32,548 nt of DNA, taken from positions 1 to 32,548 of the forward strand of contig JAPLDA010000058.1 of the NCBI GenBank assembly GCA_026391945.1. Direction: 5' to 3'. The notes under the pieces are model-generated. The model was not told the DNA's origin, did no database searches, and saw only the letters and a program-made list of their open reading frames with translations. This document shows positions 4,228 through 32,548 of the stretch, piece after piece. Every line of letters starts with the position of its first letter. The stretch's first letter is position 1. The stretch is from Bacteroidota bacterium (lineage in GTDB: Bacteria; Bacteroidota; Bacteroidia; AKYH767-A; 2013-40CM-41-45). Position numbers and translations under genes: made by a program.

Positions 4228-5043
4228 TCACCAGCCTCCGCCTGCACCACCGCCACCGGAACCGCCGCCTCCAAAGCCGCCGAATCCACCGCCACTGCCT
4301 CCCCAACTTCCTCCTCCTGAAGAAAACCCTCCCCAGGATCCTCTGCTGCGGGCCGATGCAGCATTCAGCAAAGCCCAGGCAGCCCAAAAACCGAGGTTGT
4401 TCTGTCGGGCATAATTCTTTGTCTTTGAAATTTTGGAAACGAAGACGATGAAGAAAATCAATCCGAACAGGACAAGAAAAAACCAGGGGGCATTGTCTTC
4501 TTTGCTGTTACGCTTCATGTAATCGTCGGCGGTAAATTCTCCTTTCACAATCGACATGATGGAATTGGTGGCTGCATCGAGACCTTCATAAAAATTACCC
4601 GCTTTAAAATTCGGCCGGATGTCGTTGTTCACAATCCGTTTGCATAAGGCATCAGGGAGAACTCCTTCAATTCCATACCCTGTGGTGATCCACATCTTCC
4701 TGTCGTCTTTGGCCACGAGGATGAGCACGCCGTTATTTTTTTTCTCCTGCCCGATTTTCCATTTGTTGAAAAGCTGAACGGAATAATCGGCGATGTCATA
4801 ATTGCCCACCGATCTCATGATCACGATGGCGATCTGCGTGGAAGTGGAATCGTTGAAGGTCACTAATTTCTGTTCGAGGCTGCTGCGTTCCCCTTCGCTG
4901 AGTGTTGCCGTGAAATCAGAAACCAGCGTGCTGGGTTTGGCAGGAAAGTCATCGGCAAGCGAAAGAAAAGGAATAAGGAAGAATGAATAAGTAATACATA
5001 TCCACTTAAAAAAACTATTACGGAATTGAACTGATTTATTCAT
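4228..5043 (-). CDS. TPM-domain membrane protein with Gly-rich tail (YgcG family), 271 aa
   Basis: A signal-like hydrophobic segment near residues 12-30 ends at LSLADD. The TPM domain follows (about 35-165) with the hallmark stretch around GVLILVAKDDRKMWITTGYG and then GVLPD. One membrane helix lies near 190-212. The tail is almost pure Gly/Ser/Trp and ends GGGW, as in YgcG proteins. TPM proteins are exported or membrane anchored, and their biochemical role is poorly defined (phosphatase activity and photosystem repair have been reported for plant members). I chose the ATG at 5043. A GTG at 5049, two codons earlier, directly abuts the stop of the upstream TPM gene. It is the third gene of a lemA-TPM-TPM operon. 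A T-run follows the stop, but I see no clean hairpin. Confidence 0.9.
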   Translation of the reverse strand: MNKSVQFRNSFFKWICITYSFFLIPFLSLADDFPAKPSTLVSDFTATLSEGERSSLEQKLVTFNDSTSTQIAIVIMRSVGNYDIADYSVQLFNKWKIGQEKKNNGVLILVAKDDRKMWITTGYGIEGVLPDALCKRIVNNDIRPNFKAGNFYEGLDAATNSIMSIVKGEFTADDYMKRNSKEDNAPWFFLVLFGLIFFIVFVSKISKTKNYARQNNLGFWAAWALLNAASARSRGSWGGFSSGGGSWGGSGGGFGGFGGGGSGGGGAGGGW

Positions 5044-12321: not shown

Positions 12322-15300
12322 CTATCGCATCAGGTACATTTTTCCCCAGCCTTTCTTAAAGAACTTATCAGCCTCGGTTTCCCGGTGTTCGATGATGTCG
12401 CCGTGGAGATTGGTGATCACACGGTAGAGGTAAATGCCGTTTGCAAGCTGGTCGCCGAATTCATCTTTTCCGTCCCATGCATAATCGGTGATGTTACGAC
12501 CGATGTGAATGTTTCCCAGTTCTTCCTGAGTGATCTCGCGGACTATTTTTCCCGTAACGGTCATCACCTGGATTTTCATGTACGTTGGAATTTCATTGCC
12601 GGTGAGCAGGAATACAAAACGGGTAGAGGTGGAGAATGGATTCGGGTAATTCAGCACTTCCGTAATGGTGGAATGGTTGACGACTTCGAAGGAGATTTTA
12701 TAATTGTACCGTCCCGATTCATTTTTGGATTTGTCGGCAGCTTCCACTTCTAAAATGTAAACTCCATCTTCGGTAAAGACCGGGTTCCAGTCGATGCGGC
12801 AACTGTTTTTCGGAAGCACGGCCGGTGTGAAGCGCATCATGTTTCCAAAATTCTGAGCGCTGAAAAAGATGCGCTGTTCCGCATTGCCCGTAGGAGTTTT
12901 CAGGTACAACCTGAAATCGGCTGTGTCGTTGAGTGCAAGAAATTTATTTTCGTCGTGAAGCTGGATCGTGATGGTCGGTTTCCCGGAAACAATGTCGCCA
13001 TCAAGAATGTGTATGGCATCGAAGGTAACGTCGAGGATCGGGTTCACCACATCACGGGAGATGTTGAATTTCATTTCCGCGAGGTTGTTGAAATGATATT
13101 GTTCCTTCTGGTGATGCGTTCCGTATGGATTGGCTTCCACCCACAAACTGTTGTTTCCGGCTAGCCCGAACGTGGTGTCAATTTCAACGTTGGCAAGCAA
13201 CGACTGTCCGACACGCAGCGAATCCAGTTTCACCGATTTGATGTTGTGACGGATCCTGTTGTGATCGTACATGTAAAAATCCACCGTCAAACTGTCCAAC
13301 GGTTTGTTTGCAATGTTGTCGATGGCTATGCTCATCCGGATGGTATCGCCTTCCGCCATCGGGCTTCCGTGGAAACTGAAATGGTTGTTCGCGTTCACGG
13401 CACATTCAGGAGATTCATCAAAATAAATCTGCCACTTGTCCATGTGAGGAGGCGTGCGGAGCGTTTCATCTTTCAGGAATACTTCCATTTTCAAATAAGG
13501 ATATTGTGAAGCAGGAATCCAGCTCAGCGTCGTATCGAATGAATTGGTCTGCATTCCGTAACGCAGCGTATCAAAAGTTCCGGTTCCCTGGTTGAAACCA
13601 TAAATGTTCAATGCAGAACTGTCTTTCGTAGTACCGGTTTCATACGGATGATTTTTCCAGTGCAGTTCATGCCATTGTGTTGCGGGGCCGATGAGTTCGG
13701 TTGCAATGGTTCCCCGATCCCACACACTGGTCATCAGCATTGTAAGATTCACCGAGTCCAGGCTGCTTTGACCGATGATGTTGGTATCTACGGTCGGATC
13801 TCCTTTTTTCATGAAGAAAATATACGGATCAAGATCCTGTAAGAATGGTGTCTGGAAACCGACTGAACTCAACGCTGCTGAAAACGCCGGGTAATTGGAA
13901 TAGGTGTCGTTGAACCAAGAATAAGCGAGGATGTAATCTCCGTTTGGAATGCTGTTCAGCATGGTGTTTAATGCTGTCATCTGCGACGGATCGTTGTAAC
14001 GGAAGATGAAATAATTTTCAGGACGGCTACGGCAACTGCCGCTTCCAGAAGGATATTGTGTACAACTTCCATTCGTGAGAGTAAACGTATTCGCCTGTCC
14101 CCAGCTATTTCCGCAGGTCGTCCATGGTTCAAGGGTGATCGAATCAAATACGGCAATCATCACGGCAGGTGTTCCTCCGCATCCGTTGTATTCGCCAACG
14201 GTATTATTCAATGTGTACCCGGTTTGATTGAACATGTAAGCCTGCGACGGAGTTCCATACGATTCAACGCGCAGACTTTTATGATTCACAATGAAGTTGA
14301 ATTTCCGGTTGGTGCTGTCGGGAACAACGTTGTTATAAGCATCGTTGTTAAACTGGTAAAAATGTTTTTGCGACCATCCGGTTTTTGCAGGGATGTGGAT
14401 GAACGAACTTTCCTGCCACTTGTATTTAGCCGGGTCAATGAAAACGGAGTCGTTGGCAACGCGCCAGTAATAAACTACGCTGTCCATCAGCGGAATGTTG
14501 TTGTTCCATGTAATCACGCCGCCGCTGTCGGTGAGCGTGGTGAAATGAAATGCCGGACTTGGCTGTGGCGGATTTCCGAAGGCCTGGTACGATGTATCCA
14601 TTTCAAAACGATACGTTCTGATGCCCACCAGCGGATCGGATGTGCTTGCTTTCAGAGCAGTAGTGCTGTATGGAACGATGGCGAACTTTTGCGGATATAC
14701 GGGCAGGATATCATGTGATGTGATAAACAAAGTTGTTGATGCTGTGTTGTTGAAGTGGTCATCAATTTCGGGAACAGAATCTTCGGGCAAATCAACATCT
14801 ACGCGGATGGTATTGATGCCGGCCGAATTGAACCCGCTTACATTCATGGTGAGTTGCAGCGTATCGCCGTAGTTGCAGTGAGCAATTCTCCGGATGTACA
14901 CCGAATCAATACCATTCGGGAATGTGCGTGTGATGATTACGTTGAAGGAATCGGGTACTGCCTTCGCAATGTTCCTCACAATTACGTGTACCGTAAAGGT
15001 GTCGAGATCGGTGGTGATGTTGTTCGGGGAAAAGAAAATGTTCGACTGGAGCATCAGGTAATCCGGTTTCTTCCAGCTGTTCATTTTCAGGATGGGATCA
15101 CCTTCCAGTGTCATTTCCTGGCAAACGGTTTTCTTTCCGAGTTCATTCGAATCCTGCACCTGCAGGATCGTTTGCTGCATCAGCTTACCGACGGGTTCGC
15201 CGTAAAATTTGTGGGAGATGTTGTGGTAGAGACTGTCGCAATAATAATAGAGGTAACCAGCATCACCTAAGCCAACGCTGGCAATAAAGGCGACAGAACC

Positions 15301-17361
15301 TTTGTTATCAAGTGTGACAAACCGTTCGCTGATGCTCTGTGACGACGTATGAATGTCGCCGGCAAAGCAGGAGTTGGCAATGACGACGGGATAACGTCCG
15401 TGGTTTCCGTAATTCTCCGGCACATCGGTGCTCTGATCGAATCCGGCTCCGGAAGCATGGCCGAAGAATGTCATCAGCGCCACACCCGTATCCACCTGGT
15501 GTTGCAAACCAATGGAAGGGTCAATCACCATCGGGGCGCTGCTGGATTTAAAATAAGAAGTGACGTGGCCTCCGAAAAGCGTGTCTTCAATAATCGTTTT
15601 AAATTCATTCAGGAATCCCTGGATCATCAGTTGTTCGCCGGTGTTCGATCCGCCTCCGAAGTGAAGCACTTCTTTCATCCATGGCTGTGGCGGCCCGTTC
15701 TGTGCCGTTTCATAATCCTGGACTTTCTGAAGATAATCGGTTACATGTGTTGTATTCTGTGCGCTCAGGCGGCCGGTGGGAACTTTCGGATCGTAGATGG
15801 AACCGTTGATTCCATTGGTGAGTAATATGTCAGAAGGGGGATTTCCATACGAAGGCACGAGGTTGTTCATGAAATTCTGCCCGCTGTACCTGCAGTCTCT
15901 TGCTGCAATCGATTTGCCAATGAGAAACAAGGCCTGCGGAGGATGAACGCCGGTCCAGTTATCGAGAAGGAATTTGACAAAATTTTTGATAGCAAGCGGA
16001 TGCTTTTTTATTCCATACGCAAACTGGTCGTACAGTTCATCAATGTCAACAAGCACCACTTTGTTGTTGGTGGTGAGGTCGCGGTGTGCTTTGTAAAACC
16101 CAACCTGGTTCCATAAACTCCGGTGCGTGATGATGATGTATGCTGAATCAACCGGGGCAGAAAGGAAGTTATTGAAAATCGAAGGGTTGTTATTCACATA
16201 GGTAAAACTGCTGATGGCAGAAGTCGGGACGCTGGTTACCTGGCTGCCGGAAGCGAGGAAACAGTTTTTGGGATTGCTCTGTCCGTCGTTGTCAACCAGG
16301 GCGTGAAACGTATTCCCGCTTTGAACGACAGGATAACGTTTGTGATTCGTCAGGTCATACAAAATAATTTCACCGGAACCTGCAAGGTTGAAATTCGTGA
16401 TGTCCATTCTTGTTTTTAACTGGGACCCATCATCAGGAACCAGCATTTTAAAAGAGGAAGTGTTTTCAAGATTGTAGGTATGCGGATATTTTACAGAGAG
16501 GTAAACAAAACAATCGTGGTCGTTTGAATAAAGCGCCGTATAGGTAAAGTTGGTCGTAGCCGAAGTAAACGCCGCCGGTGATACTGAAAAGTTGTATCGT
16601 TTCATGGCGTAACCTGTATAGGAGTCGGAAAAATTCACCCCGGGAAAATTAATCAGCAGGCTGTGCGGGTTGCTGTTGGAGCCAACCACGGCTGTATTGA
16701 TTTCAAAATTCGGTCCGCTGCTGTAAACGTTTTGGGTGTTGAGCGTTTTCGTCACAGGGCTTCCGTTGTAAAAAACTCCGTCGACCCATCCTTCTGATTC
16801 GGTATAATCCACTTCTGTTCCGCCGCCATACGTGGTTCCGGCATTGTAATAACCGGTTTCTTCCTTGTATGAATTTTTAATAAAATAATTCGCGGAGTTA
16901 TACGAGGTATAGGCCGTGTCGGTACGGACGGTAAATCGTTTATTCAGAAGCGAAGAATTGTAAGTCAGGAAATAAACGGAGGTATCAGTGAACAGGCTGA
17001 AGTTGGCATTGGGCTGCCAGTCGGGATCCCTGTACATTTTAGCATCCAGTGATCCGTCGTTCCGTTGTCCGTAAAATTCAATGTAATCATTGCCGTTGAT
17101 GTGATGGTCGCCATTCTGGTCATAGACGTACAGGTATTGTTCCTGCCCGTTGTGAAAAATCTGGATGTTGCGGTGATCGAGTACAGAAACAGGAATTCCG
17201 GCAAACATCATCGTGTTGGCCTGGAGGCGATACACCCCATCCTGCCATACTTTTATTTTGTAATAGGACTGGGAATAGTTGATCCAGGAATTTTCGGATG
17301 GCTGTGCCTGGGTCCCTGTACCGATGAATGCTGCAATCAGAAATAGGTAAAGTCGCTTCAT
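12322..17361 (-). CDS. porU2: PorU-type C25 (gingipain-family) peptidase, PorU2-like, 1679 aa
   Basis: Secreted cysteine peptidase related to PorU, the T9SS sortase that removes C-terminal sorting domains at the cell surface and attaches cargo. A signal peptide (1-20) precedes a beta-rich region, then the C25 domain (about 405-770) with catalytic His635 (FFGHAS) and Cys665 (IANSCFAGD). Several Ig-like segments follow. The last ~95 residues start at YPNPFS and hold a FlgD-like stretch with YAWDGKDEFGDQLANGIYLYR. It is about 500 residues longer than P. gingivalis PorU. That length and the FlgD-like end fit the variant called PorU2; I assign this from memory of the family, so plain PorU remains possible. 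Its ATG overlaps the upstream stop by one base (TAATG). Confidence 0.82.
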   Translation of the reverse strand: MKRLYLFLIAAFIGTGTQAQPSENSWINYSQSYYKIKVWQDGVYRLQANTMMFAGIPVSVLDHRNIQIFHNGQEQYLYVYDQNGDHHINGNDYIEFYGQRNDGSLDAKMYRDPDWQPNANFSLFTDTSVYFLTYNSSLLNKRFTVRTDTAYTSYNSANYFIKNSYKEETGYYNAGTTYGGGTEVDYTESEGWVDGVFYNGSPVTKTLNTQNVYSSGPNFEINTAVVGSNSNPHSLLINFPGVNFSDSYTGYAMKRYNFSVSPAAFTSATTNFTYTALYSNDHDCFVYLSVKYPHTYNLENTSSFKMLVPDDGSQLKTRMDITNFNLAGSGEIILYDLTNHKRYPVVQSGNTFHALVDNDGQSNPKNCFLASGSQVTSVPTSAISSFTYVNNNPSIFNNFLSAPVDSAYIIITHRSLWNQVGFYKAHRDLTTNNKVVLVDIDELYDQFAYGIKKHPLAIKNFVKFLLDNWTGVHPPQALFLIGKSIAARDCRYSGQNFMNNLVPSYGNPPSDILLTNGINGSIYDPKVPTGRLSAQNTTHVTDYLQKVQDYETAQNGPPQPWMKEVLHFGGGSNTGEQLMIQGFLNEFKTIIEDTLFGGHVTSYFKSSSAPMVIDPSIGLQHQVDTGVALMTFFGHASGAGFDQSTDVPENYGNHGRYPVVIANSCFAGDIHTSSQSISERFVTLDNKGSVAFIASVGLGDAGYLYYYCDSLYHNISHKFYGEPVGKLMQQTILQVQDSNELGKKTVCQEMTLEGDPILKMNSWKKPDYLMLQSNIFFSPNNITTDLDTFTVHVIVRNIAKAVPDSFNVIITRTFPNGIDSVYIRRIAHCNYGDTLQLTMNVSGFNSAGINTIRVDVDLPEDSVPEIDDHFNNTASTTLFITSHDILPVYPQKFAIVPYSTTALKASTSDPLVGIRTYRFEMDTSYQAFGNPPQPSPAFHFTTLTDSGGVITWNNNIPLMDSVVYYWRVANDSVFIDPAKYKWQESSFIHIPAKTGWSQKHFYQFNNDAYNNVVPDSTNRKFNFIVNHKSLRVESYGTPSQAYMFNQTGYTLNNTVGEYNGCGGTPAVMIAVFDSITLEPWTTCGNSWGQANTFTLTNGSCTQYPSGSGSCRSRPENYFIFRYNDPSQMTALNTMLNSIPNGDYILAYSWFNDTYSNYPAFSAALSSVGFQTPFLQDLDPYIFFMKKGDPTVDTNIIGQSSLDSVNLTMLMTSVWDRGTIATELIGPATQWHELHWKNHPYETGTTKDSSALNIYGFNQGTGTFDTLRYGMQTNSFDTTLSWIPASQYPYLKMEVFLKDETLRTPPHMDKWQIYFDESPECAVNANNHFSFHGSPMAEGDTIRMSIAIDNIANKPLDSLTVDFYMYDHNRIRHNIKSVKLDSLRVGQSLLANVEIDTTFGLAGNNSLWVEANPYGTHHQKEQYHFNNLAEMKFNISRDVVNPILDVTFDAIHILDGDIVSGKPTITIQLHDENKFLALNDTADFRLYLKTPTGNAEQRIFFSAQNFGNMMRFTPAVLPKNSCRIDWNPVFTEDGVYILEVEAADKSKNESGRYNYKISFEVVNHSTITEVLNYPNPFSTSTRFVFLLTGNEIPTYMKIQVMTVTGKIVREITQEELGNIHIGRNITDYAWDGKDEFGDQLANGIYLYRVITNLHGDIIEHRETEADKFFKKGWGKMYLMR

Positions 17362-18434
17362 TACTTGTGTTTATAGATGTCGAGCTTAAGGGAAAAGATG
17401 TTGGAGTATAAGGTTTCCTGGCTTCCTACATTCGAGAGCGCATATTCGATGCTGAAATTTTTCAACCGGATCCCGATACCCATGTTAGGTTGATAGATGG
17501 TGGAAGATCCTCCGCCTACATTTTTTACTTTCTGAATGTTCATCACGCCGCCCCGGAGGAAAATAAAATCATCGTAACCGATTTCCAGTCCGATGTGCGG
17601 ATCCACGCTCACGGGATTGGAACTGATCACTTCATTGCGTTGTCCGTCGAACGTCATGTCGTTGTCGAGTTCAGCGAGCAGGGAGAATTTTTTGGACAGG
17701 TTGGTTTTGTAAGCTGCTGCGAGGATAAGTTTCGGCAGTGTGATCTCCATGGAGTTCTTTGGGATTTCATTGTTGGTGAGTGCGAAAGTTTCTGCGAACT
17801 GATCGGTGTTGTAACTCCATGCGTTGAAGGTGGAGGTGACATCTTTTCCCAGCACGCCGAAATTCCAGTTTCCTCTTTCGTATTGTGCGCCGAGATCAAA
17901 ACCAAATCCCCATGCTTTTCCGAAATCACCGATCACGCGATGAATGATTTTAGCGCTGCCACCGTAACGAAGCCCGGCGAGTTTCGCTTTTTTTGCATAG
18001 GAGAAATAAAAGGCATAATCAGCCGCTGCAAAGGATTTCAGCTTGTCGTAGTTGATGTTGCCGGAAGCATCGATGAGGTCAAGTGTGTTCGGGATATCAT
18101 CCACCGAAAAACGAACGATGGAAAAACACAAGGCACGGGAGTCGTCAATCCGTTTTCCGATGGCGCCATAATCAAACTTGGCGATGCCGGCAAAATACTC
18201 GGAGTGCATGGCTGTCACCTGAACGTCGCTTTTGATAAGCGTTAAGCCGGCGGGATTCCAGAATCCTGCCGTCACATCATTCACGGATGCAACCTGTGCG
18301 TCCGACATTCCCAAAGCGCGTCCGCCTACGCCGATGGAAAGAAATTCATTGCTGTACTTCGGAGCCTGGGCTGAAACAAATTGGATGCTGGCTAAAAGTG
18401 TAAAGGATGCGATGGTTTGGGTAAGTTTCATCAT
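17361..18434 (-). CDS. PorV/PorQ-family outer-membrane protein (PorV2-like), 357 aa
   Basis: A signal peptide (MMKLTQTIASFTLLASIQFVSA) precedes an FadL-like beta-barrel. The family signature is near the mature N-terminus: FLSIGVGGRALGMSDAQVA and then DVTAGFWNPAGL. Later strands alternate, and the chain ends in a hydrophobic strand (NIFSLKLDIYKH). PorV shuttles T9SS cargo from the translocon to the PorU sortase complex, and PorQ is a paralogue. Coupling with the C25 peptidase by a one-base overlap suggests a PorV-type partner of that particular peptidase. I cannot separate PorV, PorV2 and PorQ by eye. ATG at 18434 is preferred; the open frame extends to a TTG at 18455, but that would put charged residues before the signal peptide. 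Confidence 0.82.
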   Translation of the reverse strand: MMKLTQTIASFTLLASIQFVSAQAPKYSNEFLSIGVGGRALGMSDAQVASVNDVTAGFWNPAGLTLIKSDVQVTAMHSEYFAGIAKFDYGAIGKRIDDSRALCFSIVRFSVDDIPNTLDLIDASGNINYDKLKSFAAADYAFYFSYAKKAKLAGLRYGGSAKIIHRVIGDFGKAWGFGFDLGAQYERGNWNFGVLGKDVTSTFNAWSYNTDQFAETFALTNNEIPKNSMEITLPKLILAAAYKTNLSKKFSLLAELDNDMTFDGQRNEVISSNPVSVDPHIGLEIGYDDFIFLRGGVMNIQKVKNVGGGSSTIYQPNMGIGIRLKNFSIEYALSNVGSQETLYSNIFSLKLDIYKHK

Positions 18435-18694
18435 GTTTTTTTTGTCATCAGGCAAACGACAGAAGGCGGGCTTTATTGTTTGTCGAACGTTTTACTTTCC
18501 AGGTACTTGTAAAGTTAAGAATAAATCTCGCCGGTTATTCCGGGTATCCAATCAAGTTACAATTTTATGATTTCCAGTCTGAATTTATACCTTGTTTTCA
18601 CGCGAAAGGATACAAGTTATACACCTCTTTTTGAAGATTAAAATTGACCTGGAAGCCCAAAAGTCAAAACATCCTTACAGTTTGAGATTCTTCG

Positions 18695-20719: not shown

Positions 20720-23227
20720 TCAGATGATCACCTCGAAGCCGAACCGGATTCCGAATTTCGAAATGTTCGGGTGATCGAGGTAGCTGAACCGTTTGATGAA
20801 ATCAATGCGCCCGAACTTCAGGATGTTTTCAATTCCCAACCCCGCTTCGATGTAAGGTTTCCGAATGGTGAAAAATGAATTCGGTTCGAGGAGGATGTTC
20901 CTGTTGGCATCGGAAACATTTCCGATGAGGCAGTTCGCCGTGACCAGTTCACGGAGTTTCAGTTTTCTCAGCAAAGGAAATTTATCCAGGAAGAAACCGT
21001 TGAAACGGTGTGTCGCCATCACCGAAACAAACTGGTCGCTCACGAATTCGTAATAGTTCATCAGGTTGAATGTGCTTCTGTCGTAGGTGTACGTTTCATT
21101 TCCTTTGTGCACTTCCAGCAATGGGTATGGAATCACGTTCCAGGTTTTTCCGGCTTCAATTTCATAATCCGTTTTTCCCAACACACCGAAATAAATTTTA
21201 TCTCTTAATTTCAGGGCAAGCTTGTGATAAGTCAGGGTACTTCCGAAAAGATTTTTCAACCCATAGGAATAAGCAACACGTGTTATCGGGTAAATACTTC
21301 CCAGGCTGATTCTCCCGTTTTTTCTTCCGACAGCTTTTTTCCGTTCGATGAATCGTTCGTTCACGGCAAACCGGAGCGCGAACGTAAATTCCGCAGAGTT
21401 GATCACGTTGCTGGTGTCATGGTGCGAAGCATCGGTGTAATACGTAAACCGCAGTTCTTCCAGCGGCAGCAATTTACGGTGAGCCAGGGAAAAGTTGGCC
21501 GTCAGCCCTTTTATAAAATCAGTTTCATAAAAAACTTTTTCTTCGAGGATGGTGTTGAACTTGGTGCTTTGTATCCGACTCAGCAACGTAACGAGCACAT
21601 TGTCGCGTGCAAACGTAGTGGCGCCTTGTCCGAGCTGTTCCACATCATTCTTATAAGCGAAGCCGAACGACGTGTTGTGTTTCCCGGTAAGATAATATTC
21701 GGCTGTTCCGCTGTACTTGAATTTTTTATCGCGCGTACCATACGCACCGTAGCCCCTGAACTGGATGGCTTTGTCGAAATTCAGATTGGTGCGTCCGCCG
21801 AATTTGAACCGGTTGCCCTCGTAGTTGTTGTAGCTGTAAAAGGAAAAAATCTGCCCGACGTCAAAAGACCCTTCCTCCAGGTAGCCTGTGGCCAGCACGT
21901 TCAGCACATCGAGGTAGGTCTGGAAGGCAGGAAGTTTCCGGATGGTATCCACCATCGCATAGATCTTCCGTTCCTGGATTGACAGTGTATCATGCCTGTT
22001 GTCGATCCAGAATTTTTCCGTCTTGCCGGAGGCATCATCGAGGACCGTTACACTTTGGTTGTTGTCTGCATAAAACTCTTCCGGCTTGGGCTGATTGAGT
22101 ACAATGTCTTTGTACGTCGTTGTTTTCCTGGCGATGAATCCCATTTTTTCCTTCGACTTTGTTTCCGTCGGGGCAATGTTGATCACCAGGATATCTTTTC
22201 GAAGCATCCACTGTCCGTCGATCTTTTCATAATCATCCACCAGCACGAGGTCTTCCACGAAGTTGATGTTGGCATCATCGGCGATCCTCATGTTGATTTT
22301 TTTAACCGCCCACGTGGTGTCGTTGATCCACATGTCGCCGATGAATGTGAGTTCCTGTTTTCTCCTCGGCTTGAACTTCAGTTTGTAACACCATTTGTCA
22401 CCGATGAAGGCGCTGTCGAGCAGGTAGAATTTATAAAACAAACTTCCGCCGTCGGCCAGCGGACTTTCAAATCCTTTCCCGAAAAGATAAATGTTGTTGT
22501 CGTAAATGTTGATGTTCTGGTAAAAGTCGCCGAGAAACTGCTGGATGCTGGAGTTCTCGATGCCGGATGCCTTCACCGCTTTGATGACTTCCTTTTTTTT
22601 CTCCGGGCTCTTTTGATAATACACATCGGAAAGGGATTCGGAAATGAAGACAGGCAAAAACGGTTTCTTGTTGGTTTCGTTGCTGTCGACATTATCAAAA
22701 ATAAATTTAAACGGCTTGAAGATTTTCCTGTTCTTGAACTTGTCGCTGATGTTGTTCACGTCCATCTCCAGCTTGTTGTAAGCTTCGTACTGGTAAGCGT
22801 TCACGTGAGTCTTGTTGTTGTTGTCTTTGTTGTCCCTTACATGCCGCATGATGATGTCGGCCGGATTCTCCCCCGCTTTCACATGCACTTCCGGCAAATC
22901 GAATTTGTTCACGCGCAAGGCAAAATTGATCTCCTGCGTTCTTCCTTTTTTCACGCGGATGGTTGCAGGGAGATAACCAATGAAAGAAGCCGAGATGCTG
23001 TCGACATCTTTCAGGGTTTCCAGCGTGTAGCGGCCGTTCATGTCGGTGTTGGTTCCAATCGTAGTTTTTTTGAAAACCACGCTGGCAAAAGGAATCGGTT
23101 CATTGGTAAGAGGGTCGTACACACGGCCCGTCACCTTCGTCACCTGTGCAAGGGTAGAAACGGAAAGAAAGAAAACGAAAAAAATAAAAATCACCGGCAG
23201 GAATGTGCGGCTTGTCATTTTGGTCAT
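20720..23227 (-). CDS. DUF5686 family outer-membrane protein with carboxypeptidase-regulatory-like domain, 835 aa
   Basis: A signal peptide with a Phe/Val-rich core (about 10-28) precedes a carboxypeptidase-regulatory-like domain (about 32-115; GRVYDPLTNEPIPFASVVF, then NGRYTLETL). The DUF5686 region occupies the rest, with NAYQYEAYNKLEMDVNNI, and ends in a long series of alternating strands (about 440-835) that looks like an outer-membrane beta-barrel. The N-terminal domain is shared with SusC/TonB-dependent receptors, but I see no TonB plug. The function of the DUF5686 family is not established. The ATG at 23227 is chosen over a TTG at 23236. A -7 element ends only six bases before the ATG, so the transcript may be leaderless. 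Confidence 0.85.
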   Translation of the reverse strand: MTKMTSRTFLPVIFIFFVFFLSVSTLAQVTKVTGRVYDPLTNEPIPFASVVFKKTTIGTNTDMNGRYTLETLKDVDSISASFIGYLPATIRVKKGRTQEINFALRVNKFDLPEVHVKAGENPADIIMRHVRDNKDNNNKTHVNAYQYEAYNKLEMDVNNISDKFKNRKIFKPFKFIFDNVDSNETNKKPFLPVFISESLSDVYYQKSPEKKKEVIKAVKASGIENSSIQQFLGDFYQNINIYDNNIYLFGKGFESPLADGGSLFYKFYLLDSAFIGDKWCYKLKFKPRRKQELTFIGDMWINDTTWAVKKINMRIADDANINFVEDLVLVDDYEKIDGQWMLRKDILVINIAPTETKSKEKMGFIARKTTTYKDIVLNQPKPEEFYADNNQSVTVLDDASGKTEKFWIDNRHDTLSIQERKIYAMVDTIRKLPAFQTYLDVLNVLATGYLEEGSFDVGQIFSFYSYNNYEGNRFKFGGRTNLNFDKAIQFRGYGAYGTRDKKFKYSGTAEYYLTGKHNTSFGFAYKNDVEQLGQGATTFARDNVLVTLLSRIQSTKFNTILEEKVFYETDFIKGLTANFSLAHRKLLPLEELRFTYYTDASHHDTSNVINSAEFTFALRFAVNERFIERKKAVGRKNGRISLGSIYPITRVAYSYGLKNLFGSTLTYHKLALKLRDKIYFGVLGKTDYEIEAGKTWNVIPYPLLEVHKGNETYTYDRSTFNLMNYYEFVSDQFVSVMATHRFNGFFLDKFPLLRKLKLRELVTANCLIGNVSDANRNILLEPNSFFTIRKPYIEAGLGIENILKFGRIDFIKRFSYLDHPNISKFGIRFGFEVII

Positions 23228-23233
23228 AACGGC

Positions 23234-23241
23234 CAAAGATA
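23234..23241 (-). promoter_or_regulatory. Putative -7 element directly before the DUF5686 gene
   Basis: TATCTTTG on the minus strand matches TAnnTTTG and ends six bases before the ATG at 23227. No TTG is found at the usual distance upstream, so the promoter is only half supported. If used, the mRNA would start at or within a few bases of the start codon. Confidence 0.33.
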
Positions 23242-23261: not shown

Positions 23262-23957
23262 CTACCGGCCCTTTTTGTTTTTCACATTTTTTTTACCGGC
23301 GGGGGAATTGGGTTTTACCGGCGGCTTTTGAGCAAAAGATATTTTCGGAACCGGTTGGATAAATTTTCCGGTCAGCGTCAGCCACTGTGTTTTGCTGAAA
23401 CTCACAGCGAGCCATACGATGAGAGCGAAATAATAACTGTTGGTATTTGACCGGGCAAAAATTTCATTCCAGAATTCTATTTTTTTTATTTCGCCGGCAT
23501 CCAGGTGCAATCCTACCCAATTCGAAATCGTATAGTGATGAAGGATGATGATCCTTAGTTTGACCATCACGAAAACAGTCATCCATAAATAACCAAAGAA
23601 TAATGCAAAAAACTTTCTTCTTTTCGAGGTGGGTGTAGCGAGGATCAGGGCGATTAAAAAAGCAGTGGCGATAAAACCAATTCTCCGGAGTTTCAACGGG
23701 TAAACGGCTCCTTTGAAATCATTGCCATTCACCCGCAGCGATTTGTTCGAGAGATAAAGTTTCGTGTCATGGTCCTTGCGCTGTTCATCTTCGAGAAAAA
23801 TGACTTCCTTGTCTGTGAGCCGGTTGAACACCTGGTTGACCGATGTCCGGATAAATTTTTCATACGCACGGTCGATACCGGTTTGAGGAAGCAAAAAGAA
23901 AATATACACGGCCGCGAAGATGGCCAGGAACTTCAGCAGAGGTTTGTAATGGATCAT
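23262..23957 (-). CDS. Unrecognised four-helix membrane protein, probable exosortase partner, 231 aa
   Basis: I do not recognise this protein with certainty. Hydrophobic segments lie near residues 7-24, 91-110, 115-140 and 173-193. A soluble loop of about 65 residues sits between the first two helices, and the tail is very basic and Pro/Lys rich, ending KKNVKNKKGR. No catalytic Cys/Arg/His arrangement like that of an exosortase is present. Its ATG overlaps the exosortase stop by four bases (ATGA), so the two are translationally coupled and probably interact. Exosortase-associated membrane proteins are known beside several exosortase types in Bacteroidota (for example an XrtX-associated family); membership here is an inference from position and topology. 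Confidence 0.75.
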   Translation of the reverse strand: MIHYKPLLKFLAIFAAVYIFFLLPQTGIDRAYEKFIRTSVNQVFNRLTDKEVIFLEDEQRKDHDTKLYLSNKSLRVNGNDFKGAVYPLKLRRIGFIATAFLIALILATPTSKRRKFFALFFGYLWMTVFVMVKLRIIILHHYTISNWVGLHLDAGEIKKIEFWNEIFARSNTNSYYFALIVWLAVSFSKTQWLTLTGKFIQPVPKISFAQKPPVKPNSPAGKKNVKNKKGR

Positions 23958-24493
23958 GCGGGCTTTACTTTATTTGTGATACCCCGGGCCCAAAGAATCC
24001 AATACCCCGTTCCCAAAATAATAAAGATGATTTGCCAGACGTCGATGTGCATGGTTTCAAAAAGATCGTGGTTGTAAATGCCAACCAGGAACAACGATAC
24101 AATACGAATGATATTAAGCAGGAACAAAAAGGACAAGCCGATGATCAGACCTTTTATTTTCGATCTCCATGAAGCAGGAAATGCAAGCATGCCGGCCGTC
24201 ACCAGGGCCATGGGCTCCAGTGCATCGCAGCCTTTTTTGATGCCCACCGAAAATTGCGAAGAGGAAATCGTATCATTCAATACGGTGGTTCCATAACCCA
24301 ACACATTTAAAATTTTTGAAGACAGGCTTGCATATAAATTCACCACGTGAAAAAAAATCGTATCCTGTAAAGCTGCATTGTAGTAAAGGATGTAAAATAA
24401 AATCATCTGCAGGATAACACCTGCCAGGAAAAGAATAAAAGGGTGACGGATGCGCCACCCTTTTATTTTTGAAAATTGAGAACCGGTATTCAC
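23954..24493 (-). CDS. Exosortase/archaeosortase family protein, 179 aa (XrtH- or XrtX-like)
   Basis: Small membrane transpeptidase-like enzyme predicted to cleave a C-terminal sorting signal and transfer the protein to an acceptor. The three family residues are present in order: Cys89 (KKGCDALEPM), Arg130 (LLNIIRIVSL) and His149 (FETMHIDVW). About five hydrophobic segments are visible (near 18-38, 45-66, 93-106, 115-138 and 152-170), fitting the short core-only exosortases. The neighbour directly upstream carries an IPTLxxWG C-terminal signal. By established knowledge exosortase H handles IPTL-CTERM proteins, so XrtH is the first guess; an XrtX assignment cannot be excluded by eye. The start is a GTG at 24493, 25 bases after the substrate gene, and a terminator-like hairpin lies in codons 10-20. 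Confidence 0.85.
   Translation of the reverse strand: MNTGSQFSKIKGWRIRHPFILFLAGVILQMILFYILYYNAALQDTIFFHVVNLYASLSSKILNVLGYGTTVLNDTISSSQFSVGIKKGCDALEPMALVTAGMLAFPASWRSKIKGLIIGLSFLFLLNIIRIVSLFLVGIYNHDLFETMHIDVWQIIFIILGTGYWILWARGITNKVKPA
24434..24467 (-). terminator. Terminator-like hairpin inside the 5' end of the exosortase gene
   Basis: A perfect 12-bp stem (24434-24445 with 24456-24467; core AAAAGGGTG/CACCCTTTT) has a 10-base loop and a T-rich exit on the minus strand. It is within the first 20 codons of the exosortase gene and 52 bases after the stop of the IPTL-CTERM gene. It could reduce read-through from substrate to enzyme. Confidence 0.5.
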
Positions 24494-24518
24494 AATGTTG
24501 TTACCTGTTTGCTGAAGT

Positions 24519-25541
24519 TTATGCCATTCTTATTTTTTGCCGTTTGCTGATCAACCATGCGCCTGTAGCAAGAAGCAAAAGTGCAAAAATGATCAGACCC
24601 CACTGCGAAAGTGTTGGAATCGGAGACGTTGTAGCAACCGTATCCAGGTACATATTCGTTGAAGAACCAGAAGGTGTCCAGCTTTGACCGCCATCCGTAG
24701 TTAATTCAGTAAAGATATCAAAGAAACTGTCGATCATATACCCTCCTGTAACCTGTGTGATGCTAGTTTGTCCCAAACTCTGTAACGTTGGACTTTCACG
24801 AATCATGACTCCGCCTGGCAAGGTGCCGCCGGAAATATCCAATTGCAGCATTTCAGTATCAAAGAAACCGGTAGATCCACCGGCGCCGTTGTTATGAACC
24901 CTGACCGTCACATTTGCATTCGCCGACATCGGCTGCCAGGAAGATCCTCCGTTGGTGGAAACTTCCATGTGAATGCTGCTGCTGAATGACTGCACATAGG
25001 TTCCACCCGGAGGTGGAGGGGCTTGTTGCGAAGAAAAATTATCATGCGTGATGTTCCTCAGCAAAAAACCATTGGAGTAAGAAGTAATGTCTCCGGCCAA
25101 ACTTTTATACGGGCCATTCGACGGAAGTGAATTCGATATGAAAGTAGAAACCGGAAGGTAGGTCACCTTCGTGGTTAAAGGAACACCATTCAGCGTGAGG
25201 TAACAACTGTCTTTGTTAATTCCTCCCCATGGATCCATAAATTCAACGGGTAGTACAATGGAACCTCCCGGCGGTATAGGTGTTACATTTTGTGCTGAAG
25301 TCCAGTCCAGGTTGTGAGAGCCGCCGGCTGGTGCCTGGCTGGCCGGATTAAAACCGGGAGCCGTGCCGCTTTTAAATGACTTGCCTGCCGCTGCCGTCAG
25401 GTGCACATCATTGGCTGCTGCAGCACTGGTATTTTTAAGGGTAACTTTTGCCAACTGTCCGGCTTTAACCGGGATTGAGTTCGCCAGGACAATGGCAAGG
25501 ATCATTACCAATCCCAAAATAAATTTTATCATGTTTCTCAT
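24519..25541 (-). CDS. IPTL-CTERM sorting-domain surface protein, 340 aa
   Basis: Predicted exported substrate of the adjacent exosortase. It has a signal peptide (about 1-28, MRNMIKFILGLVMILAIVLA then VKAG), a Gly/Ser/Thr/Pro-rich beta-type body with two similar phrases, STNGGSSWQPMS and TTDGGQSWTPSG, and the C-terminal tripartite signal. That signal starts at residue 308: IPTLSQWG, a helix LIIFALLLLATGAWLI, then the basic tail SKRQK. This is the IPTL-CTERM layout. The body has no recognised enzymatic domain; a stretch around GGVMIRESPTL and GYMIDSFFDIFTELTTDGG recurs, as I recall, in other sorted surface proteins. I use the ATG at 25541; the frame is open to 25637, but those residues are not signal-like. 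It is first in a three-gene operon. Confidence 0.85.
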   Translation of the reverse strand: MRNMIKFILGLVMILAIVLANSIPVKAGQLAKVTLKNTSAAAANDVHLTAAAGKSFKSGTAPGFNPASQAPAGGSHNLDWTSAQNVTPIPPGGSIVLPVEFMDPWGGINKDSCYLTLNGVPLTTKVTYLPVSTFISNSLPSNGPYKSLAGDITSYSNGFLLRNITHDNFSSQQAPPPPGGTYVQSFSSSIHMEVSTNGGSSWQPMSANANVTVRVHNNGAGGSTGFFDTEMLQLDISGGTLPGGVMIRESPTLQSLGQTSITQVTGGYMIDSFFDIFTELTTDGGQSWTPSGSSTNMYLDTVATTSPIPTLSQWGLIIFALLLLATGAWLISKRQKIRMA

Positions 25542-29694: not shown

Positions 29695-32548
29695 TTATCT
29701 CACGAGCGTGACGTGGCCGATGTACTTACGCGGCTTCCCGGATTTATCATGAACTTCAATGATGTATTCATACACATCACTCTGGCAAAGATTGCTGTTG
29801 TAGTAAGAACCGTCCCATGGCTGGTCCTTGGCAGTGGAATGGAATATTTCTTTTCCCCAACGGTCGATGATCCACATGTTATAATCCACATAGCCGACTC
29901 CAAGAGCAATGAAACCATCATTCACTCCGTCGCCATTCGGCGTGAAAGCATTCGGGATGTAAATGGCGAATTCATCTTCAACAATTAATCTTCCGTAAGT
30001 CGTATCAGCACACCCATGCATCGTATTTACCATAAGCCGGATTTCAAAATATCCTGTGTCGGCATAGATGTGCGACGGGTTTTGATCGTACGACAGGGGA
30101 GAGTGGTCACCGAAATTCCATGTCCAGTTATAGGCATTGATGCTGTTATCGGTAAAATCAATGGTACTGTTCGGAGTGACAACGGATGATGATTGAAAGA
30201 AAGCGGCAGTCGGCAACGGATAAACCACCACGGCCTGTGGAACCGTTAAACTGGCAAGGCAACCCGGAGGAGTCTGAATGACGAGTGAAACAGTGTAACT
30301 TCCGGGAATGACATATTCATGCGAAGGATTCTCCGCATTGGAAAGTGTGTTGTCGCCTAAATCCCAGTAATAAGATGAGCCGGCAGGAGTGATGGAATTA
30401 TCAAGGAAGTTGGCAAACACCGGGGTGCATCCTTTGATTTGTGCAGGAAGGAATGAAACAACCGGAAGCGGATTTACCAGCAAGGTCACAGAATCCTTTG
30501 CAGCCGGTGTTCCGCAGCCATCCGTGACGGTAACCACAAATATGGAATCACGAACCGGCGCAACGGTAACGTTAGGGCCAACGATCATCCCGCTGTTCCA
30601 TGAATAATAATATGGTCCGCCGTTACCACCAGAAGCCAGCGCTGAAATGTTTACAGCATTTCCTTCGCAGATAGGAGGCGCCCCGGTGGCGTTTACCTGT
30701 AACGGAGGATTCACGGTAACCTGTACCGATTGCTGAGCCGTGGTACAACCATGAGCATCGTGAACGTTGACTGAATAAACAGCTGTAACAACAGGAGAAA
30801 CATTTTGTGATGCATTCGTATTTGCATTACTCCATACGTAACTGTAAGGAGTTGTTCCGCCCGTTACGTTGGCAGAAATTGTCGCTGACTGGCCAATGCA
30901 AATGGTAGCGGCGCCGGTAACTGTCATCGCGACAACTGGCGGTTCAGCAACAAACACAGTAGCGGAAGAGGTACATCCGTGATCATCGGTGATGGCAACC
31001 GTATAATTTCCGGAAGAAAGTCCTGTTGCATTTACATTCGTACCACCGGATGGGCTCCATGAATAATAGTAAGGAGAAGTTCCTCCATTCACAATGGCTG
31101 TTGCCGTTCCGTCAGTACTTCCAAAACAGGAAGCGGGAGTGCTGTTGGCATTGGGTTGAATAGCCGTTGGTGCGGTTACCTGTACCGATGAAGTATCGGT
31201 GCATCCGTGATCATCGGAAACGATGACCGTATAATTTCCGCTGTGCAGCCCGGTAGCCGTCATGTTGATTTGTCCAGATGGTAACCAATAATATTGGTAA
31301 GGGAATGTTCCGCCGGCGACAATTGCTGTAGCGCTGCCATCGCTGGAACCGTTACACAAAGCAGGGTTCATACTCATGATCGTATTCAAAGCAGTCGGTT
31401 GCCCGACACTTGTTGAGTTTGAAGAAATACATTGGTGTGCATCCGTAACAGTAACAGTATAGCTTCCGAAAGCAAGTCCGGTTGCATTTGCATTGGTACC
31501 GCCTGAAGGAGACCATGAATAGGAATAACCCGGTGTGCCGCCGTTTACGATCACTGAAGCGGAACCGTTGGCGGAACCAAAACATCTGGCAGGGATGGAT
31601 GATAAGTTCAGGTTTAACAGAGCCGGTTGATTCACAACAGTAGCTGCATTCGTTATGCAACCGTTTGCATCGGTAACGGTGACTGAATAATTATTGGCTG
31701 CAAGCCCTGTTGCATTTGCATTCGTGCCGCCGGAAGGTGACCAGAGATAAGAATAAGGAGGTGTTCCTCCTCCTGGTGCAACAGTGGTAGTTCCATCAGA
31801 AGATCCATTGCATAACGCATTCGTTGCAGAAGCATTGGCAGAAAGAACAGTTGGCTGAGTTACAGTGATTGAATCTGCAGCGGCGCAGTTGTGTGCATCT
31901 GTCACGGATACACGGTAATTTCCGGCGCTTAACCCCGATGCCGTTGCATTGGTTCCTCCCGAAGGCGACCATGAATAAGAATAATTTTGAGTTCCTCCGG
32001 TTACAATAACAGAAGCGGAGCCGTTCACAGAGCCGTTGCACCATGCAGGTGATGAAGCCATCACAAGATTTAATGCCGCTGGTTGATTGACAACCGTTGA
32101 TGTATTGATGGTGCATCCATGTGCATCTGTAATATGCACGTTATAGGTATTGGCAACTAAGCCGGTGATGTTTGCTGTTGTTGCTCCGCCCGGTGACCAC
32201 AGGTATTGATAAGCTGATGTTCCTCCGCCGACATTCACGGTTGCAGTTCCGTCTGCTGACCCATGACACAAAGCATCCGTTGAAATCGTATTGGCTACAA
32301 GCGGTGTAGGTTGATTAACCAAAATAAAATCAGAAGCAGAACAGTTGTGAGCATCGGTCACAGTGACGGTGTAGTTACCAGTTGCAAGTCCTGTTGCATT
32401 GCTGTTTGTTCCGCCGGAAGGCGACCATGAATAAGCATATCCTGAAGTTCCACCTGCAGCAACCACAGAAGCCGAGCCATCACTGCTTCCGTTACAAAGA
32501 GCAGGAGTTGATGTCATTACAAGATTCAAAGGTGTTGGTTGATTGACA
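29695..32548 (-). CDS. SprB-repeat / PKD surface adhesin with T9SS type-B C-terminal domain, 5'-partial
   Basis: Large cell-surface protein, probably secreted by T9SS; related proteins act as gliding or attachment adhesins. The frame stays open through the window edge, so the N-terminus and signal peptide lie outside. In the window are seven SprB-type repeats of exactly 76 residues (each with CNGS-like start, GGT, SWSPSGGTN, ATGL and TDAHGC), two diverged relatives, two PKD domains (near YYWDLGDNTLSNAENPSHEY and WTWNFGDHSPLSYDQNPSHIY; each 20 or so residues) and the type-B sorting domain. The last starts IPNAFTPNGDGVND and contains RWGKEIF and WDG, ending in VTLVR. Cysteines recur at fixed places in each repeat. 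The apparent first codon at 32529 is a TTG inside the reading frame. Confidence 0.9.
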   Translation of the reverse strand, partial: VNQPTPLNLVMTSTPALCNGSSDGSASVVAAGGTSGYAYSWSPSGGTNSNATGLATGNYTVTVTDAHNCSASDFILVNQPTPLVANTISTDALCHGSADGTATVNVGGGTSAYQYLWSPGGATTANITGLVANTYNVHITDAHGCTINTSTVVNQPAALNLVMASSPAWCNGSVNGSASVIVTGGTQNYSYSWSPSGGTNATASGLSAGNYRVSVTDAHNCAAADSITVTQPTVLSANASATNALCNGSSDGTTTVAPGGGTPPYSYLWSPSGGTNANATGLAANNYSVTVTDANGCITNAATVVNQPALLNLNLSSIPARCFGSANGSASVIVNGGTPGYSYSWSPSGGTNANATGLAFGSYTVTVTDAHQCISSNSTSVGQPTALNTIMSMNPALCNGSSDGSATAIVAGGTFPYQYYWLPSGQINMTATGLHSGNYTVIVSDDHGCTDTSSVQVTAPTAIQPNANSTPASCFGSTDGTATAIVNGGTSPYYYSWSPSGGTNVNATGLSSGNYTVAITDDHGCTSSATVFVAEPPVVAMTVTGAATICIGQSATISANVTGGTTPYSYVWSNANTNASQNVSPVVTAVYSVNVHDAHGCTTAQQSVQVTVNPPLQVNATGAPPICEGNAVNISALASGGNGGPYYYSWNSGMIVGPNVTVAPVRDSIFVVTVTDGCGTPAAKDSVTLLVNPLPVVSFLPAQIKGCTPVFANFLDNSITPAGSSYYWDLGDNTLSNAENPSHEYVIPGSYTVSLVIQTPPGCLASLTVPQAVVVYPLPTAAFFQSSSVVTPNSTIDFTDNSINAYNWTWNFGDHSPLSYDQNPSHIYADTGYFEIRLMVNTMHGCADTTYGRLIVEDEFAIYIPNAFTPNGDGVNDGFIALGVGYVDYNMWIIDRWGKEIFHSTAKDQPWDGSYYNSNLCQSDVYEYIIEVHDKSGKPRKYIGHVTLVR
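30931..32526 (-). repeat. Tandem array of seven 228-bp SprB-type repeats
   Basis: Units run 32526-32299, 32298-32071, 32070-31843, 31842-31615, 31614-31387, 31386-31159 and 31158-30931. All are exactly 228 bp (76 codons) and in frame, and the pattern continues past the window edge. Units 1, 3 and 5 resemble each other more than units 2 and 4. Confidence 0.9.

Follow-up and report, generated by a model that had tools for sequence, protein, structure and literature searches.

Organization of the locus

The window analysed here is a stretch of 32,548 nucleotides of DNA from a Bacteroidota bacterium. It contains a genuine three-gene operon on the minus strand, encoding a substrate with a C-terminal IPTL-CTERM tag, an exosortase and a membrane protein referred to below as the partner (Table 1). 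The exosortase starts 25 nt past the substrate stop codon, and the partner and exosortase genes overlap by ATGA. The coordinates, strand and overlap given in a preliminary description of these three adjacent genes were all confirmed, and its interpretation of them as substrate, enzyme and accessory is supported by the analyses presented here. A DUF5686/carboxypeptidase-regulatory-like gene starts about 26 nt past the partner, and the transcript may be common.

Components of the type IX secretion system (T9SS) are encoded in the same window, including PorU2, PorV2 and a SprB-repeat protein, and SprA (2680 bits) and about 150 type-A T9SS tails were matched in the genome. PorU2/PorV2 is a second sorting route and is not part of the cassette. 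The existence of two C-terminal sorting routes to the surface, as first suggested, holds to the extent that exosortase and T9SS coexist, but this is not special, given that Flavobacterium johnsoniae has both (PMC10936215), and no mechanistic link between the two was found here.

Table 1. Positions of the genes, motifs and candidate elements discussed in the text (window coordinates unless a locus is named).
Feature	Position	Strand	Description
Substrate	24519..25541	(-)	340 aa from ATG, secreted, IPTL-CTERM tag at C terminus
IPTL-CTERM motif	24552-24620		Substrate residues 308-329
Exosortase, XrtH type	23954..24493	(-)	179 aa, GTG start; Cys89, Arg130, His149
Partner, putative pseudo-exosortase	23262..23957	(-)	231-aa membrane protein; remote NF041730 relative
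DUF5686/carboxypeptidase-regulatory-like gene	20720-23236	(-)	
PorU2 and PorV2, T9SS	12322..18455	(-)	NF052324 704 bits (cut-off 450), NF052325 497 bits (cut-off 325)
SprB-repeat protein	29695-32529		Type-B T9SS tail
RNA hairpin, 15-bp stem	24434..24467	(-)	Candidate intragenic terminator/attenuator, inside exosortase 5' coding region
Hairpin copies	window 24434-24467 (-); L042 6540-6573; L072 ~4997-5033		Same codons, two paralogues and one relative
Carriers of the pre-tag domain	window 24519-25541; L005 133-1593; L007 1477-3027; L040 4725-6848		
IPTL proteins with two-helix tail	L061 1382-2617; L070 3520-4839, 6559-7725; L071 3101-4954; L073 2478-3950		
Stand-alone 73-aa ORFs	L091 5525-5746; L088 7602-7823		
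Broken exosortase of genome G006	L041 6663-7190 (= L072 4965-5490)		

The substrate and other IPTL-CTERM proteins

The substrate has an N-terminal signal peptide, as judged by eye, and its C terminus consists, as first described, of an IPTL motif (PIPTLSQWG), a hydrophobic helix and a basic tail (SKRQKIRMA). It passed the cut-offs of both TIGR04174 (IPTL-CTERM; 27.6 bits, cut-off 20.5, above chance) and PF18203 (26.7 bits, cut-off 20.8). It failed that of the Midcut-by-XrtH model NF033207 (23.5 bits, cut-off 45), only the IPTL part of which was matched; in the window substrate the basic tail is the last element, and the further tail of NF033207 is missing.

The operon had been presented as a self-contained cassette of one enzyme and one substrate. 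A whole-genome search retrieved three IPTL tails over the cut-off and one sub-threshold tail. A second exosortase, on contig C8, sits directly behind an NHL-repeat-like IPTL protein, and unlinked IPTL proteins are encoded on contigs C65 and C28, the former scoring above and the latter below the cut-off. The claim of one enzyme for one substrate is, thus, refuted, and the label "self-contained" is likewise unsupported. Between 1 and 34 IPTL tails per genome were counted in 12 genomes with related loci, so the presence of many substrates per enzyme is common. No PEP-CTERM tails were found in the window's own genome, in a search whose control likewise matched nowhere and which does not, therefore, prove their absence.

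Residues ~196-315 of the window substrate form a domain common to the C65 IPTL protein (49% identity), and the same domain, upstream of the tag and over similar ranges, occurs in the IPTL proteins of C28 and of the relative L040. IPTL substrates with differing upstream parts have this domain of ~120-150 aa (DTEMLQLDLSGG...RESPT...FFDVFTELSxDxGxSW) in common, just before the tag (Table 1). Some Bacteroidota IPTL proteins bear a two-helix tail of ~75 aa after the IPTL helix, which is Midcut-like yet below the NF033207 cut-off. In two further genomes, a model of these fused tails matches stand-alone 73-aa ORFs (E ~1e-9) immediately upstream of the exosortase gene, and the two-helix tail is a candidate accessory, either fused or free.

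Family and subtype of the exosortase

The enzyme scored twice the cut-off of the exosortase superfamily model TIGR04178 (51.1 bits, cut-off 23; 53.1 bits in the genome search). By bits, the subtype models ranked in the order XrtH (TIGR04177; 82.8, cut-off 86), XrtX (NF046081; 67.4, cut-off 170) and XrtM (61.4, cut-off 125). The choice between XrtH, XrtX and a new type had been left unsettled in the preliminary description; XrtH is the best model, yet strict membership failed by 3 bits, and the enzyme is therefore labelled XrtH-type rather than XrtH. Of the two outcomes named in that description as refuting it, a score under the exosortase cut-offs and relatives with no CTERM protein nearby, neither occurred where the superfamily model is concerned. 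An XrtX or XrtF identity was rejected on scores and tree. The catalytic set Cys89, Arg130 and His149 was correctly recognized from the outset and is fully invariant across the related exosortases (25/25). The AlphaFold2 model of the enzyme has a pLDDT of 85.9.

In a maximum-likelihood tree, the exosortases linked to IPTL proteins and partners lie on one side and the XrtX/F-type enzymes of other Bacteroidota lie apart (support 100/99); the latter often adjoin short PIDGG-motif proteins and a ~160-aa membrane protein unrelated to the window partner. The C8 paralogue, which is 51% identical to the window exosortase and exceeds the XrtH cut-off (95.9 bits), groups with the enzyme of locus L061 (99/87) and not with the window exosortase, so the two enzymes of this genome do not stem from a recent duplication within it. 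The L061 locus has a partner, and the C8 locus may, for this reason, once have had a partner that has since been lost. A third candidate exosortase of the same genome, on contig C88, was rejected (20.8 bits, under the cut-off); by eye, it is an SdpI-like DUF1648-type protein. In a partner-linked sub-branch (L086, L087, L089, L092 and L093), the GCDA of the active site is replaced, mostly by GCEG and in one case by GCDG, and L092 has four tandem IPTL proteins upstream of the exosortase.

A hairpin in the exosortase coding start

The RNA hairpin in the 5' coding region of the window exosortase (Table 1) has a z score of -4.5 relative to dinucleotide shuffles, and its U tract is poor (CUUUUCC). 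At these codons (GWRxxHPxI), the C8 paralogue and L072 form stems of 10 to 11 bp with a run of eight U behind them, and these two genes, otherwise diverged, have an identical block of ~36 nt; no stable stem was found at this position in L060 or L061. Of 2000 synonymous recodings, only 5, 25 and 30 were equally stable for the window, C8 and L072 copies, respectively, in three tests that are not mutually independent, so the hairpin is not readily accounted for by the protein motif alone. The W..P..F residues of the block are conserved in exosortases without the hairpin, which supports translation of the block. The hairpin is possibly a terminator or attenuator giving more substrate than enzyme; a terminator at this position would truncate most transcripts just past the substrate gene.

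Co-occurrence of exosortase, partner and IPTL tails

Genome contigs were queried with an exosortase profile built from an alignment, which yielded 14 loci, an earlier single-protein query having yielded none. One of the loci is from Phycisphaerales, and the other 13 are from Bacteroidota or unnamed organisms. A partner of ~200 aa lies directly 3' of the exosortase at 14 of these 14 loci, mostly with an overlap of 4 to 16 nt, and an IPTL-type protein is encoded within ~4 kb at most of them. An IPTL protein is absent from the flanks read of L067, L068 and L069, the genomes of which have IPTL tails elsewhere. Among all XrtH-type loci found without using the partner, the partner is directly 3' in 18 of 19 (14/14, 3/3 and, in the window's own genome, 1/2), the exception being C8, which has no partner alongside in a genome in which a single partner gene was found. 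In the reverse direction, the partner adjoins an exosortase in all seven other genomes found by a partner search.

A sample of 395 Bacteroidota genomes was also surveyed, a clear IPTL tail being defined as a match from the first motif position with E <= 1e-4. Such tails were found in eight genomes, all eight of which have an XrtH-type exosortase with an adjoining partner, as would be expected from the pairing of IPTL-CTERM with XrtH put forward in the preliminary description. Partners were detected in 10 genomes of the 395, eight by profile and two more by inspecting the two IPTL genomes that had escaped the profile. The probability of the IPTL/partner overlap arising by chance is ~3e-15 in the whole sample and 8e-11 when only the 115 exosortase-positive genomes are counted. 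Both values are too favourable, because the calculation assumes independent genomes and the search for the two additional partners was confined to genomes already known to have IPTL tails. No match was found in a plasmid collection, and a search of Planctomycetota gave only two weak matches, with no exosortase recognized near them. In genome G006, a single exosortase was found, and its gene is disrupted near the region of the catalytic Cys, through either decay or an assembly error; the IPTL gene and partner of this genome are open.

The partner as an exosortase homologue

The best model matches of the window partner are weak (heimdallarchaeosortase, 17.8 bits; XrtH_assoc, NF041730, 16.1 bits; XrtY, 11.7 bits), and no Pfam family was found over its cut-off. 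All three matches fall within residues ~87-143 and overlap the exosortase core, and for this reason the partner and exosortase profiles were compared directly. With hhalign, 19 partners matched 19 exosortases with a probability of 97% and an E value of 9.5e-11 over 149 columns, and 25 partners matched 25 exosortases with an E value of 3.6e-10. Partners also matched 13 independent XrtX/F enzymes (E 1.3e-7 with the 25-partner set and 7e-7 with the 19-partner set). Reversed profiles gave E >= 0.02, comparison of the partner with the XrtX/F-associated membrane family gave E 0.29, and the best of 100 column-shuffled and 100 block-shuffled exosortase profiles scored 26, versus 68 for the real one. 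The XrtH model was itself matched by 7 of 19 partners (best 8.9e-6).

The alignment places the partner motif GYLPTxxxxALxLAxPxxWKRKLxALxxG on the exosortase motif GCDAxEPMALFxAxxLAFPxxWxxKLxGLxxG. No Cys is present in the catalytic column in any of 25 partners, the column of the His shows gaps or variable residues, and an Arg at the Arg130 column is found only in the window partner and its closest relatives. The AlphaFold2 model of the partner (pLDDT 82.3) has an order of elements in common with that of the enzyme (two helices, three strands, a helix of ~16 residues, one of ~32 residues and a C-terminal helix), in a comparison of element order only. The C-terminal helix of the enzyme runs unbroken and that of the partner is split; the strand region is larger in the partner, with a beta-strand insertion at residues ~51-88. 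Both models gave only middling helical-bundle matches and no named exosortase in a comparison with PDB structures, which does not indicate a new fold, and no solved exosortase was found by a sequence search of a PDB copy. Mean column identity is 27% for the partner and 44% for the enzyme, and their distance matrices are correlated (r 0.78, 0/2000 permutations).

At the level of sequence profiles, the partner can, thus, be shown to be an exosortase homologue that lacks the catalytic Cys, has no conserved His or Arg and is kept directly behind an active enzyme. This homology of the third gene is the new point and was not seen in the preliminary description. The partner is probably a catalytically dead exosortase paralogue forming a subunit of the XrtH complex. 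NF041730 is the nearest named family, although the window partner failed its cut-off of 35; the best relative, the partner of genome G004, matches it near full length (33.6 bits, E 2.9e-8), and none of those tested reaches 35. Given this match, the window partner family is, on profile scores, a remote branch of NF041730 or a sister to it. In an incomplete coverage of the literature, we came across no description of NF041730 as homologous to exosortases, and an equally incomplete search, which does not establish absence from the literature, found no paper on an exosortase as a pseudoenzyme or catalytically inactive protein.

Proposed mechanism and alternative explanations

We favour, with fair but not high confidence, the reading that this operon encodes an XrtH-type exosortase system in which active enzyme and inactive partner form a hetero-oligomer, the partner being its non-catalytic half. 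By analogy with the family, the IPTL protein would be exported by Sec and its C-terminal helix would park in the inner membrane; Cys89 of the exosortase would then cut near the IPTLxxWG motif, generating an acyl-enzyme that would hand the protein to an acceptor. The dead partner might pair with the active exosortase and hold or gate the tag or the acceptor, perhaps via its enlarged beta-strand insertion. A tripartite tag has been described for the superfamily (PMC12188702, PMC7157517). Surface delivery of IPTL-CTERM proteins has a precedent, as the S-layer protein of Methylomirabilis lanthanidiphila is one (PMC8671808).

Several observations fit such a hetero-oligomer less well. The C8 exosortase has no adjoining partner, which would imply use of the single partner in trans or a partner-free mode of working; adjacency and correlated trees can also arise from joint inheritance alone; the partner is far less conserved than the enzyme, which would be unusual for a tightly fitted subunit; and the partner is open in G006 next to a broken exosortase, if this is not an assembly error.

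It is conceivable, though rather unlikely, that the partner is homologous to exosortases without being a subunit of the complex and acts separately, for instance by chaperoning the tag, anchoring the product or serving as an adaptor to T9SS or to a route of export across the outer membrane. Other exosortases do adjoin partners of different families, such as the XrtX/F-associated proteins, which show no homology, and the CrtB-associated protein (PMC12188702). In F. johnsoniae, deletion of XrtF or of its adjacent partner, which belongs to another family, abolished the same surface phenotypes (PMC10936215), a result that fits any cooperative role. The present results fit this reading and a hetero-oligomer alike; given the common fold, a dimer-like arrangement is the simpler guess.

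An assignment of the window enzyme to a new subtype, which would be compatible with any reading of the partner, is improbable. It would account for the score below the XrtH cut-off and for the fact that only 2 of 395 Bacteroidota genomes pass this cut-off, but no subtype model scores higher than XrtH, the C8 paralogue (51% identical) exceeds the XrtH cut-off, the substrates bear the IPTL tag and the enzymes form one tree group apart from XrtX/F. It is very improbable that the partner is a polytopic membrane protein of separate origin that resembles exosortases in hydrophobic composition only, since, despite its weak single-sequence scores and the lack of a Pfam match, the reversed, column-shuffled, block-shuffled and unrelated-membrane-family controls all fail, the independent exosortase set still matches and the order of helices and strands agrees with that of an exosortase.

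Returning to the hetero-oligomer reading, the pattern suggests that the XrtH-type class of sorting enzymes works as an active/inactive pair. In its fullest form, to which we give slightly less than even credence, XrtH-type exosortases would be obligate complexes of an active and a dead exosortase from tandem genes, with the "XrtH-associated membrane protein" lineage supplying the dead half and, in some members, a terminator in the exosortase coding start keeping substrate in excess over enzyme. Such a dead half would be, to our knowledge, the first pseudoenzyme subunit known in the exosortase/archaeosortase superfamily. If the partner is indeed a dead exosortase, the role of exosortase partners would become directly testable for the XrtH class, and there would be reason to check other sorting enzymes for active/inactive pairing.

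Comparison with known systems

For archaeosortase A, a member of the same superfamily, we know of no paralogous partner of this kind. This enzyme differs from the window exosortase in recognizing a PGF tag and in belonging to another domain of life, but a speculative model for it, in which an acyl-Cys intermediate is followed by transfer to a lipid amine (PMC7157517), resembles the steps proposed here. XrtF with Fjoh_1449 (PMC10936215) and CrtB with TIGR04533 (PMC12188702) resemble the window in that a short membrane protein is encoded directly behind the exosortase; the role of the CrtB-associated protein has been stated as unknown (PMC12188702). Unlike the window partner, the ~160-aa proteins directly behind XrtX/F-type exosortases are of an unrelated family, as the hhalign control indicates. 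NF041730 has the same genomic role beside XrtH and is matched near full length by the G004 relative, whereas the window partner itself scores far below its cut-off. Also close is XrtH (TIGR04177) with IPTL-CTERM (TIGR04174), with which the window has in common the best subtype model, a dedicated IPTL tag and the conserved Cys, Arg and His, and from which it differs in its slightly sub-threshold score, its Bacteroidota lineage and its linkage to a partner throughout.
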